A DNA stretch of 37,855 bases from an archaeon (GTDB lineage Archaea; Nanobdellota; Nanobdellia; Pacearchaeales; GW2011-AR1). The DNA lies in contig JABHLR010000007.1 of NCBI GenBank assembly GCA_018693315.1, positions 1 through 37,855 on the forward strand, given 5' to 3'. Position 1 is the first letter of the stretch. Each line of letters starts with the position of its first letter. This document shows, piece by piece, positions 21,482-30,946 of the stretch. The translations under genes were made by a program, and so were the position numbers. The notes beneath the pieces were generated by a model. It ran no database searches and had not been told where the DNA came from. It worked only from the letters and a program-made list of their open reading frames with translations.

Positions 21482-23170
21482 TTAGAAAACAGCCCACTTT
21501 CCCTTAGCCTTCTGCTCCCTATCCTTAACCGACCCCAACTTATTAATCCGCGGCCGCCCACTATCCTTATCCTTCCTCAAAGTAATATCTAAACTCTCAA
21601 GCAACGAAGAAATCCCAGTCTCAAAATCAACAATAGAAGAAGCCTCCCCACGAACTCCACTCTCTCCCCAAAAATTAATAATAGAATCTGCCAAATACGA
21701 AACAAGAAGCAAATCATGGTCAACTACAAACGCAGTCTTTTCCCTCTCAATCATAATTTCCTTAATCGCCTTCGCCACAACAATCCTTTCCTCAACATCC
21801 AAATAAGCAGACGGCTCATCAATCAAATAAACATCAGCATCCTTCGCCAAACACCTAGCAACCGAAAACCTCTGCAACTCCCCACCACTCAAGGCCGACA
21901 ACTTCTTTCCAACCAAAACCCCGAGATTAAACGTCGACGCCAACTTCTTATTTATCTTCTCCCTAAACATAATATCTCGAACCGTCTCATCCGAATCCGT
22001 AAACAAATACTGCGGCTTATACGAAATCTCCAAATCCAAATCAAGCTTCCCATTAGTCGTCTCAATCTCTCCGGCCAAAGCCCGAACAAAAGTCGTCTTC
22101 CCGGTTCCATTCTTCCCCAAAACACCAACCACATGATTCTGATGAATCTCGCCAGCCTCAGTCTTAAATTCAAAACCACTTTCAAACTTCAAATCAAAAG
22201 CCGGCCACTCAGCAATCTTCGCCCCACTCATCGCTGGATTCTTCGTAAAATTAAAGCTCAAAGGCTTATCCCTAATCCTCAAATTCTCCTCTTTCAAAAA
22301 ACCATTCAAATAAGCATTAACCCCAACCTTCGAACTCTTAACCCCAGACACAGTCCCAAACGCACCCTGACCACCGAAAAACACATTCAAATAATCCGTC
22401 AAATAATCCAGAATCAAAAGATCATGCTCAACAACAATCAAAGTTTTTTCCTTAGCAATCTCCTTCAAAAAATCTGAAACTCTCAACCTCTCCCCAATAT
22501 CCAAAAACGCCAAAGGCTCATCAAAGAAATAAACATCAGCATCGCCAAGCGAAGCCGCCAAAATCGCAACCCTCTGTAACTCACCACCAGAAAGCTTATT
22601 CATCTTATTCCCCAAAACCTGAGTCACGCCCAACCTCTCAGCCAACTTCTCAATATCTTTCTTAGAACCACGCTTCTTCAACAACTCCATCACGCCAACA
22701 TCAATAGCAAGCGACGACAAATTTTGCGGCTTATAGGAAATCTTCTTATCCTTCAAATTATCAAAATAAGTCTGCAACTCAGTCCCCTTAAATCTCGAAA
22801 CATCAATCTCCTCAGTCCCAGCCAAAATCTTCACAGCAGTCGACTTCCCAATTCCATTCCGCCCAAGCAATCCCAAAATCGAACCCTCCTTCGGCGTCGG
22901 CAAACCATACAAAGCAAATCCATTATCACCATAACGATAAATCAAATCCTCCTCGCTCACCGACGGCAAATTAATAATATCAATCGCGCCAAACGGACAC
23001 CTCTTTACACAAATCGCACAACCAACACACGTATTCTCATCAATCGCACACTTCGGATCAACAGTCACACAGCTATCATATTCCTTCTTCTCAACCGGAC
23101 AATACTTCTTACACTCATGCCCACACACAGTCGGCTTACATTTTTCCTTATGAACTATAGCTAATTTCAT
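21482..23170 (-). CDS. ABCE1/Rli1 ribosome-recycling ATPase
   Basis: N-terminal Cys-rich Fe-S region (CVGCAICVKRCPFGAIDIINLP), two ABC cassettes (GRNGIGKST, GKNGTGKTT; two LSGGELQR); start placed at MKLAIVHKEKCKP. Confidence 0.96.
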   Translation of the reverse strand: MKLAIVHKEKCKPTVCGHECKKYCPVEKKEYDSCVTVDPKCAIDENTCVGCAICVKRCPFGAIDIINLPSVSEEDLIYRYGDNGFALYGLPTPKEGSILGLLGRNGIGKSTAVKILAGTEEIDVSRFKGTELQTYFDNLKDKKISYKPQNLSSLAIDVGVMELLKKRGSKKDIEKLAERLGVTQVLGNKMNKLSGGELQRVAILAASLGDADVYFFDEPLAFLDIGERLRVSDFLKEIAKEKTLIVVEHDLLILDYLTDYLNVFFGGQGAFGTVSGVKSSKVGVNAYLNGFLKEENLRIRDKPLSFNFTKNPAMSGAKIAEWPAFDLKFESGFEFKTEAGEIHQNHVVGVLGKNGTGKTTFVRALAGEIETTNGKLDLDLEISYKPQYLFTDSDETVRDIMFREKINKKLASTFNLGVLVGKKLSALSGGELQRFSVARCLAKDADVYLIDEPSAYLDVEERIVVAKAIKEIMIEREKTAFVVDHDLLLVSYLADSIINFWGESGVRGEASSIVDFETGISSLLESLDITLRKDKDSGRPRINKLGSVKDREQKAKGKWAVF

Positions 23171-23275
23171 ATTATACAAAATAAAAATCAAGTTTTAAAC
23201 CTTCTCAAAACCCAAATCTGTCTTAACCCCAAAGTAATCGCTTAAACTTAAATACATTAAATATCATATAATATA

Positions 23276-26815: not shown

Positions 26816-27478
26816 ATGACACTATTACTCGGAATCGACGATGCTGGACGCGGACCAGTCCTAGGCCCAATGGTACTAGCCGGAGTCATAATCGAACCAT
26901 CTGAAGAGCAAACAATCAAAAACTGGGGCGCAAAAGACTCAAAACTCCTAACCCCAAAAAAGCGAGGCGAAATAAAAGAAAACATAGAAAACAGATACAA
27001 ACACCACATCGAAACCTCATCACCAAAAGAAATCGACAACCACAAAAACCTCAACACACTCGAAGCAGAAAAAGCCGCAAAAATAATCAACGAACTAACA
27101 AAAGACATAAGAGAAAAAGTCCAAGTCATAATCGACTGCCCATCAGTAAACATCGAGTCCTGGACAAACGACGTCCAAAAATTAATCCGCAAACCAGAAA
27201 TAATTCAACTATCCTGCGAACACAAAGCCGACCTTAACCATCCAATCGTATCAGCCGCATCAATAATCGCAAAAGAAAAACGAGAAGATGAAATCTACAA
27301 ATTAAAACTCCAACTCAAAACCGACTTCGGTTCAGGCTACCCAGCCGACCCAAAAACAAAAGAATTCATAGCAGAAAATTTCGACAACCCAAAATACAAT
27401 ACTATAATTCGATTCTCATGGAACACGGTAAAAAAACTAATCAAAGCCAAAGAAGCAAACCAACAAAAACTATTCTAA
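26816..27478 (+). CDS. rnhB: Ribonuclease HII
   Basis: LLGIDDAGRGPVLGPMVLAGV, SKLLTPKKR, AASIIAKEKRE, GSGYPADPKT. Confidence 0.95.
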   Translation: MTLLLGIDDAGRGPVLGPMVLAGVIIEPSEEQTIKNWGAKDSKLLTPKKRGEIKENIENRYKHHIETSSPKEIDNHKNLNTLEAEKAAKIINELTKDIREKVQVIIDCPSVNIESWTNDVQKLIRKPEIIQLSCEHKADLNHPIVSAASIIAKEKREDEIYKLKLQLKTDFGSGYPADPKTKEFIAENFDNPKYNTIIRFSWNTVKKLIKAKEANQQKLF

Positions 27479-28081: not shown

Positions 28082-30946
28082 ATGACTTACATAAAAAAGA
28101 TGGTGATGCACGGGTTCAAGTCCTTCGCGAGAAAAACAGAAATCCCCCTAGAAAACGCAATGAACGTAATCGTCGGACCAAACGGCTCCGGAAAATCAAA
28201 CATCACCGACGCTCTCTGCTTCGTACTCGGACGATTATCAATCAAATCAATCCGAGCAGCAAAAGCAGCAAACCTACTTTTCTCAGGAAACAAAACATAC
28301 AAAGGCGCAGCCGAAGCATCAGTAGAACTAACATTCGACAACTCAGACAAAACATTCGGCGTCGACTCAAACGAAGTCACAATCAAAAGAACAGTAAGAA
28401 AAACCGGGCAATCAATCTATAGAATAAACGGGCACACAAAAACACGACAAGAAATCCTAGAACTAATGGCACAAGCCGGCGTCGACCCAAACGGATTCAA
28501 TATCGTACTACAAGGAGAAATACAATCCTTAGTAAAAGCAACATCAGAAGAACGACGAAAAATAATCGAAGAGGTCGCAGGTATCTCGATCTACGAAACA
28601 CGAAAACACAAATCTCTAAGGGAATTAGAAAAAACCGAAGAAAAACTGAAGGAAGTCTCAGCCGTTCTAAAAGAAAGAACATCGTATCTAAAAAATCTCG
28701 ACAAAGAAAGACAGGAAGCAATGTCCTACCAAAAACTTGAAACGACAATCAAGCGATGCAAAGCAACTCTAATCTCAAAAACGAAAAACACCAAAGAAAA
28801 AGAAACATCTGAAATCGAAAAAACAATTGAGAACTACAACTCAGAAATTGAAAAACTAAAAAGACAAATTCAAGAAAAAAATATCGGCGCGGAAGAATTC
28901 CAAAATAAAATCCTAGTAATCAATAAACAAATCCAATCTTCAACCAGCAACGAACAAGAAGTATTACACCGAGACATCTCAGACCTAAAAGCAGACCTCG
29001 CAGGATTAGACGTAAGACGAGAAAACTTCGACAACAGAACGGCTCAAGGAAAGGAAAAAATCGAATCACTAAAAAATAAAATCGAAAATCTAAACCTCGA
29101 AATATCACAAATCCAAACTTCATCTCCAAAAATAAAAGAACAACAAGAACAACATAAAATCCTCCAAGAAAAATTCGACATCCTAGAACAACAGCGAAGA
29201 AAATTCTACGTCCTAAAATCCGACCTCTCAACTCTCGAAAATCAAAAATCGCAAAAAGAAAAATTCCTAATCGAATCGCAAAAAGAAGTCCAGCTAATCG
29301 AACAAACAATCACGTCCCTATTCCACGAAATCAAATATTCCAAATCAACAGGCGAAAATGAAAAACTAAAATTAGAATCTAAATCAAAACTCGAAACAAC
29401 GATAACTCAAATATCAAATCTTGAAAAAGAAATTTTAGAAAAAGAAAAAAGAAACGCAATCCTAAATACAGACATCAAACGAGAAGAAAAACTAAAAGAC
29501 GACATCACCCAACTAAAATCCTGTCCAATATGCAAGCAAGATGTAAGCGACGGACACAAACACAAAATCTCAGATTCAGCAAACACAAAAATAGATTCAG
29601 CAAAAACAGAAGTCGAAAGAAATCTAAAAATAAAAACAGAAGAAGCTGGAAAAATAAATCATCTTCAAAATAGACTATCAGAACTAAGAGCAAAATTAAA
29701 TGAGTTAGACATCGATAGATTCAAGCTAAGAAACTCCGAAGAGAAAAAAGAACAAATAAAACGAATCACAGAAAACCAAATCGAAACGAAAAAAGAACTA
29801 ACATCAATCAACGAAAAATTCCATAAACTAAAAACCGATTATGAAAAGTTAAAAGACATCGAAGAAAAATACGACGAAACAAGACTAAATCTCCAAGAAC
29901 TATCTTTCGCAGATCTAGATGTCGACAGCGAAATAACAATGAAGCAAAAAGAGATTAACAGACTAACAGTCGAATTAAAATCCACAACAAGAGATATCGA
30001 AGAATCCGAAATCGAATTAAGAAAAATCGAAGTTCAAATAACAGAAAAAGATAAGCAAGCAGTAAAGAAAGAAATCGAAGAACAAAAACTATACGAAAAA
30101 GCACAAAAATTCTTCGACAAAAGAAACGAACTACAAGATCAGCAAAAAGTTCTAGAAACAGACATCATCGGATTACAACACACAGCAAAGAACCTCGAAG
30201 ACAAAATTAATCACAACAAAATCCAAAGAGCTCAAATCGAAGCGCAAATAGATTCCCTAAAATCAGAACTCCTAGAATTCGGCCAAGTCGAACTCTTGCA
30301 ATTACCAGTCGACCAACTTAAAGAACGACTACAAAAATCACAATTTAGAATCTCAAGATTAGGAAACGTAAACCTAAGAGCTCTAGAAGTCTTCGACAAA
30401 GTAGGAGAACAAGTAAAACTAATCCAAGACAAAGTCGAAGTAATTTCAGGCGAAAGAGAAAAAATCGAAAAGATCATTGGCGAAATTGACAAAAAGAAAA
30501 AGAAATCCTTCATGACAACACTAACAGCAGTCAATGAATACTTCACACGAAACTTCTCACAACTTTCAAGAAAAGGTGAGGTCTTCCTAGAGCTAGAAAA
30601 CAAAAAAGAACCATTCGAGGGCGGACTAAACATCCTAGTAAAAGTCTCACGTGGAAGATACTTCGACATCACATCTCTATCAGGCGGCGAAAAAACAATG
30701 GTAGCATTATCCTTAATTTTCGCAATCCAAGAATACCGACCTTACTGCTTCTACGTATTCGACGAAATCGACGCAGCCCTAGACAAACACAACTCCGAGC
30801 TACTAGCAGCCTTAATCAAAAAATACATGACAACCGGCCAGTACATAATCATAACACACAACGACACACTAATCTCAGAAGCCACAAATCTCTACGGAGT
30901 AAGCATGCAAGAAAACATGTCAAAGATTATATCTCTGAAAGTCTAA
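28082..30946 (+). CDS. SMC-family ATPase with a central Rad50-like zinc-hook motif
   Basis: Head N: HGFKSFARKTEIPLENAMNVIVGPNGSGKSNITDALCFVLG; head C: VSRGRYFDITSLSGGEKTMVALSLIFAIQEYRPYCFYVFDEIDAALD; central CPICK at codons 481-485 of 954. Confidence 0.93.
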   Translation: MTYIKKMVMHGFKSFARKTEIPLENAMNVIVGPNGSGKSNITDALCFVLGRLSIKSIRAAKAANLLFSGNKTYKGAAEASVELTFDNSDKTFGVDSNEVTIKRTVRKTGQSIYRINGHTKTRQEILELMAQAGVDPNGFNIVLQGEIQSLVKATSEERRKIIEEVAGISIYETRKHKSLRELEKTEEKLKEVSAVLKERTSYLKNLDKERQEAMSYQKLETTIKRCKATLISKTKNTKEKETSEIEKTIENYNSEIEKLKRQIQEKNIGAEEFQNKILVINKQIQSSTSNEQEVLHRDISDLKADLAGLDVRRENFDNRTAQGKEKIESLKNKIENLNLEISQIQTSSPKIKEQQEQHKILQEKFDILEQQRRKFYVLKSDLSTLENQKSQKEKFLIESQKEVQLIEQTITSLFHEIKYSKSTGENEKLKLESKSKLETTITQISNLEKEILEKEKRNAILNTDIKREEKLKDDITQLKSCPICKQDVSDGHKHKISDSANTKIDSAKTEVERNLKIKTEEAGKINHLQNRLSELRAKLNELDIDRFKLRNSEEKKEQIKRITENQIETKKELTSINEKFHKLKTDYEKLKDIEEKYDETRLNLQELSFADLDVDSEITMKQKEINRLTVELKSTTRDIEESEIELRKIEVQITEKDKQAVKKEIEEQKLYEKAQKFFDKRNELQDQQKVLETDIIGLQHTAKNLEDKINHNKIQRAQIEAQIDSLKSELLEFGQVELLQLPVDQLKERLQKSQFRISRLGNVNLRALEVFDKVGEQVKLIQDKVEVISGEREKIEKIIGEIDKKKKKSFMTTLTAVNEYFTRNFSQLSRKGEVFLELENKKEPFEGGLNILVKVSRGRYFDITSLSGGEKTMVALSLIFAIQEYRPYCFYVFDEIDAALDKHNSELLAALIKKYMTTGQYIIITHNDTLISEATNLYGVSMQENMSKIISLKV

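Follow-up and report, generated by a model that had tools for sequence, protein, structure and literature searches.

Can the ATPase heads of SMC, a protein that organises chromosomes, be combined in nature with the zinc hook of Rad50, a protein of DNA repair, and what role would such a protein play? The question is raised by an open reading frame in a window of 37,855 nucleotides (the whole stretch of DNA analysed; contig JABHLR010000007.1 of assembly GCA_018693315.1), which comes from a metagenome-assembled genome (MAG) of the Pacearchaeales (Nanoarchaeota, DPANN). An earlier note, made from the letters alone, had suggested an SMC/Rad50 hybrid in a different lineage, and as a description of the architecture this was right. 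The gene, here called hook-SMC, is the Pacearchaeales orthologue of canonical SMC and not an additional SMC-like protein. Its parts are as follows.

26816..27478, + strand: rnhB (RNase HII; Pfam RNase_HII 3e-44; synteny)
28082..30946, + strand: hook-SMC gene, 954 aa, a single open frame (SMC_prok_A/B models 522/513 bits, Rad50 87)
28082..28576, + strand: N-terminal SMC head half, aa 1-165 (match to PDB SMC heads)
28175-28198, + strand: Walker A GPNGSGKS, aa 32-39 (motif scan)
28583..29389, + strand: outgoing coiled-coil arm (N-arm HMM 87 bits; Rad50s ≤18, reversed controls ≤22)
29390..29668, + strand: Rad50-type hook apex, aa 437-529 (class Rad50-hook HMM, PDB profile match, AF2 and Foldseek)
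29522..29533, + strand: CPIC zinc-hook motif, Cys481 and Cys484 (invariant in 96/96 hook-SMCs)
29669..30481, + strand: returning coiled-coil arm (C-arm HMM 67 bits; Rad50s ≤16)
30482..30943, + strand: C-terminal SMC head half (PDB SMC head matches, motif scan)
30677-30691, + strand: signature LSGGE, aa 866-870 (motif scan)
30749-30766, + strand: Walker B FYVFDE, aa 890-895 (motif scan; the D-loop ALD also lies in this head half)

The frame begins with ATG and is not interrupted. An assembly artefact or frameshift was ruled out, the gene being intact in about 100 genomes, including the single-contig genomes G004 and G040. Elsewhere in the window, positions 21482-23191 encode an ABCE1/RLI-like protein with two ABC domains and Fer4_RLI, for which the mechanical ORF call used a TTG start.

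Heads, arms and apex of the protein

The heads had been described in the earlier note as SMC-like, and profile, structural and phylogenetic comparisons all agree. Pfam reports SMC_N at 197 bits, and the curated models TIGR02169 and TIGR02168 reach 522 and 513 bits, compared with 87 bits for the best archaeal Rad50 model. The thresholds of the two SMC models for full-length proteins (729 and 567 bits respectively) were missed, as would be expected without a hinge. The 87 bits against the Rad50 model fall far short of its 700 and put the heads outside the Rad50 family, in agreement with the tree. Among PDB structures, the closest are the heads of Pyrococcus furiosus SMC (5xei, E 1e-99), while Rad50 heads match at 1e-11 or worse. 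In the head tree all SMCs of the order were placed with hinge SMCs and formed one clade opposite them (support 100/99.9), with Rad50 on a very long branch (100/100). Placement within Rad50, which the earlier note had named as a result that would refute it, was therefore not obtained, and Rad50 identity was ruled out by model scores and head tree together. Walker A, signature, Walker B and D-loop are all intact. Homology extends into the arms: HMMs for the N- and C-terminal arms of hinge SMCs of the same class matched aa ~183-363 (87 bits) and ~511-773 (67 bits), with Rad50 sequences at ≤18 and reversed sequences at ≤22 bits. The same HMMs detected no recognisable similarity in the distal arm halves. 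By sequence comparison, then, the protein has demonstrably kept its SMC heads and, in each arm, the half nearest the heads.

Between the arms no hinge, the domain by which two SMC copies ordinarily pair, was found. SMC_hinge is absent from the 954-aa protein in Pfam searches, as the earlier note expected, and a class-specific hinge HMM gave -4 bits compared with 232-282 for real hinges. Across the order the same HMM gave no more than 0.9 bits on any SMC, and a hinge was found in none of 109 Pacearchaeales genomes, 18 of which are at least 90% complete. Outside the order, 260 of the 276 genomes in the same phylum draw had one, and control genomes gave the expected result. All genomes are MAGs and the one studied here is 87% complete, so the absence rests on replication across the order and not on this genome.

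The apex instead resembles that of Rad50. Cys481 lies, as first noticed, at the midpoint of the 954 residues, and with Cys484 forms a CPIC motif. Pfam Rad50_zn_hook gave only a sub-threshold match (aa 474-509, E 0.024); at E 0.01 that model also misses the true Rad50 of the same genome. More sensitive comparisons supported the Rad50-like hook that had been proposed. A 181-residue apex profile, built from the window protein and ten relatives and compared with all PDB sequences, gave significant matches only to the Rad50 hooks 1l8d (2.7e-5) and 6zff (2.8e-5). An HMM trained on 46 Rad50 hooks from the phylum scored 55.3 bits on the window protein and 26-55 bits on all 62 hook-SMCs tested, always at aa ~437-529, whereas neither SMCs of the hinge and hookless types nor reversed sequences exceeded 7.2 bits. 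When all cysteines were masked the window protein still scored 49.6 bits, and reversed sequences and hinge SMCs ≤7.8. The hook apex is also supported by structure prediction: an AF2 monomer model of the region (pLDDT 88) folds into a helix-hook-helix hairpin whose three best PDB matches by Foldseek are Rad50 hooks. The Foldseek E-values are modest (7e-3) because coiled coils are promiscuous, and the full-length AF2 model was too poor for use (pLDDT 69, pTM 0.29). Taken together, the profile evidence establishes, as far as homology searches can, that a hinge of ~180 aa is gone and that a Rad50-type zinc hook of ~90 aa occupies the apex.

Another view of the CxxC would give it a redox or structural function at the tip of the coiled coil, without any part in zinc-mediated dimerisation. 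Metal and dimer measurements are lacking, and some families have lost the motif and kept the protein. We nevertheless consider this improbable. The motif is not a chance occurrence, since both cysteines are kept in 96/96 hook-bearing homologues amid widely varying arm columns, none of the 96 has a second CxxC and cysteine makes up 0.5% of the protein. Conservation is concentrated in the hook, with an entropy of 1.7 bits in its columns compared with 2.8 bits in arm columns. The proline of CPxC is present in 95/96 homologues and a histidine 11 residues after the first cysteine in 91/96; CPxC and this His at +11 are common to the Rad50s of the class. The homology to Rad50 hooks moreover spans ~93 residues and does not depend on the cysteines, and PDB Rad50 hooks top both the profile and the fold matches.

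Partner genes and proposed mode of action

Which partners are available to the protein? Both ScpA and ScpB, for which the earlier note had recommended a search, are encoded in the same genome on other contigs. The ScpA match is modest (Pfam, 40.6 bits, cut-off 24.6), and the protein also matches the Thermococcus onnurineus ScpA structure (E 6e-12); ScpB scores 106 bits and was confirmed by Pfam and PDB. Across the order, ScpA was found in 99/109 and ScpB in 106/109 genomes. A genome search for a second, hinge-bearing SMC found none: the SMC_N proteins are hook-SMC, a Rad50 and ABC ATPases. With ScpA kept and no other SMC found, hook-SMC is the only candidate SMC for the kleisin. Mre11, also looked for on the earlier note's advice, is present beside a different, real Rad50, a compact protein of 685 aa with a CPTC hook (the pair lies at L125 4182-7447, - strand, contig C1 of this genome, G000). 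Many Rad50s of the phylum are similarly short (~680-700 aa). No mre11 gene adjoins hook-SMC, whose neighbours are rnhB and a PH-domain gene.

These gene relations bear on a second alternative, that the protein is another Rad50-like partner of Mre11 in break repair whose heads converged on SMC. Its apex is indeed a Rad50-type hook and the genome does have Mre11. However, every comparison assigns the heads to SMC, the Mre11 partner is already taken by the dedicated Rad50 that adjoins it, Rad50 is near-universal in the phylum, and kleisin and ScpB are kept although there is no other SMC. We regard this alternative as very unlikely. Slighter still is the case for a hook heterodimer, in which the SMC and the cell's Rad50 would share a common Zn and so tie condensin to Mre11. 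Two similar hooks do occur in one cell (CPICKQDV..HKHKI in the SMC and CPTCLQAV..HKHRI in Rad50, 41% over 32 aa), but direct evidence is lacking, the SMC-hook and Rad50-hook sets diverge at +5 and +8, which may insulate them, hookless relatives manage without a hook, and the arms are unequal in length (a 685-aa Rad50 and a 954-aa SMC). Least credible is membership of the archaea-specific SMC-related proteins (ASRP; coalescin/Sph) or of arcadin-4, ruled out by scores and tree: the comparison with coalescin raised in the earlier note holds for the zinc hook, which those archaeal families also bear (PMC9389158), but not for family, as hook-SMC scores 106.8 bits against the NF045487 cut-off of 300 and 48 against the arcadin-4 cut-off of 860, SMC models score about five times higher, and the gene occupies the canonical smc position.

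The analysis thus leaves us with a protein whose chimeric architecture, conservation, sole-SMC status and partner genes are established. We are confident, short of certainty, that it is the canonical SMC of the order (the condensin, as Smc-ScpA and perhaps with ScpB), with its dimerisation module replaced in place by a Rad50 hook. Two copies would join at the hook, four cysteines sharing one Zn2+, although no zinc or dimer data are available. At the opposite end ScpA, possibly with ScpB, would bridge the two heads, which again lacks interaction data. ATP binding and hydrolysis would open and close the heads, and the ring might entrap or extrude chromosomal DNA like Smc-ScpAB; there is no biochemistry for any member. 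Tested archaeal ScpB often do not bind ScpA (PMC7055376), which makes a two-subunit Smc-ScpA as likely as Smc-ScpAB. The scheme is inferred from engineered precedents. When the hinge of Bacillus subtilis Smc is exchanged for a P. furiosus hook, cells grow normally on rich medium, with the protein still bound by arm-length constraints (PMC5344682), and the yeast Rad50 hook can be replaced by SMC hinges (PMC6969161).

Distribution and history of the hook

The gene was found in 107/109 Pacearchaeales genomes, and its named relatives belong to Candidatus Pacearchaeota and Nanoarchaeota MAGs. The CxxC hook is retained in 96 of the 104 order SMCs that could be read through the apex. The remaining eight, from families f4, f6 and f7, have neither hook nor hinge and are 783-810 aa long, each arm being ~70 aa shorter (loci L035, L036, L040, L041, L042, L044, L045 and L046; genomes G005, G006, G011, G016, G019, G023, G025 and G029). 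A ninth hookless SMC, in G014, is fragmented. The hook is thus not indispensable to the Pacearchaeales SMC lineage. Both a single clade of hook-bearing SMCs (AU p 0.001) and a single clade of hookless ones (AU p 0.009) were rejected; neither group is monophyletic, which implies repeated change at the apex. This is best explained by an apex later lost, or gained and lost, on more than one occasion; the direction is not settled.

Several observations lie beside this main pattern. An apparent intein lies within Walker A of the hook-SMC at L039 (G010), reading GPNGSGKCLTGDSLVQLGDGTI..., and likewise in L038 (G009) and in ORFs of ~1490 aa in G035, G047 and G078; hinge SMCs of the class also include similar long ORFs of ~1660-1720 aa. 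Four genomes of family f59 (G207, G232, G334 and G373; 600-700 kb, 88-95% complete) gave no SMC match, and in G207 and G232 a Rad50 match is missing as well. An apparent hook-SMC outside the order, in G302, was rejected as a truncated hinge SMC: L126 6333-9143, from a different order, encodes a hinge SMC whose arms are greatly shortened and which ends at the contig edge.

With regard to origin, we infer from hook homology that the module was acquired from Rad50; the donor is unresolved. A single clade of SMC hooks was not rejected (p 0.29), nor was it demonstrated, the tree of the 94-residue apex being poorly resolved. Among hook-SMC loci whose flanks are long enough, most have rnhB close to smc; the same arrangement occurs in hinge-SMC genomes (L200, L126), and this common synteny supports orthology at an unchanged locus. 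Probably the swap took place in situ, at the ancestral rnhB-smc locus.

A wider reading, which we put forward tentatively as a serious possibility that we do not yet favour, is that the condensin of the whole order runs on a foreign dimerisation module and that at least two or three lineages dropped even the hook, leaving SMCs of ~800 aa without a recognisable apical dimerisation domain. These would then have to rely on nothing but the coiled coil for pairing, or act solely via heads and kleisin. If this is true, a domain regarded as the hallmark of SMC proteins, the hinge, has proved replaceable and then dispensable in nature. The hookless subgroup is stranger and more radical than the hook-bearing SMCs.

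Comparison with known systems

A 2023 review gives the rule that SMC proteins combine a hinge with a kleisin and Rad50 a hook with Mre11 (PMC10586767). Hook-SMC breaks this rule across an order, with SMC heads and a Rad50-type hook in kleisin-encoding genomes. In a search that did not reach subscription papers or preprints, we found no published natural SMC with a zinc hook, nor any paper linking such a hook with Pacearchaeota or DPANN, and the protein is apparently the natural counterpart of an exchange known until now only from laboratory engineering (Burmann et al., B. subtilis). It bears on whether loop extrusion requires the hinge for anything more than dimerisation, such as a DNA entry gate, DNA binding or hinge-head contact, and the hook-bearing, hookless and hinge-bearing orthologues within one class provide a natural test series for this question.

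Among hook-bearing proteins, Lamassu LmuB has a CPxC hook in many cases; by published description alone, without sequence comparison, it differs in being related to Rad50, ~650 aa long and part of defence systems (PMC10586767). Coalescin/Sph (ASRP) and arcadin-4 are likewise archaeal SMC-superfamily proteins with zinc hooks, but differ in head family, hook-SMC lying far below their curated cut-offs. With Rad50/SbcC the protein shares the ~93-residue apex, CPxC, the His at +11 and the flanking helices; in contrast, it has SMC heads and proximal arms, lacks an adjacent Mre11 and coexists with a true Rad50. Canonical SMC (Smc-ScpA, Smc-ScpAB) is matched in head sequence and motifs and in the head-proximal arms. 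As with canonical SMC, the genome holds no second SMC, the gene shows the rnhB-smc synteny of the class, and ScpA and ScpB are encoded, whereas hook-SMC lacks the hinge, has somewhat shorter arms and carries a Rad50-type hook at its apex. A further parallel is the engineered B. subtilis Smc(Zh) (PMC5344682), functional in vivo, in which SMC heads and arms likewise end in a Rad50 hook where the hinge would be; Smc(Zh) is man-made, whereas the Pacearchaeales protein is natural, order-wide and apparently old.
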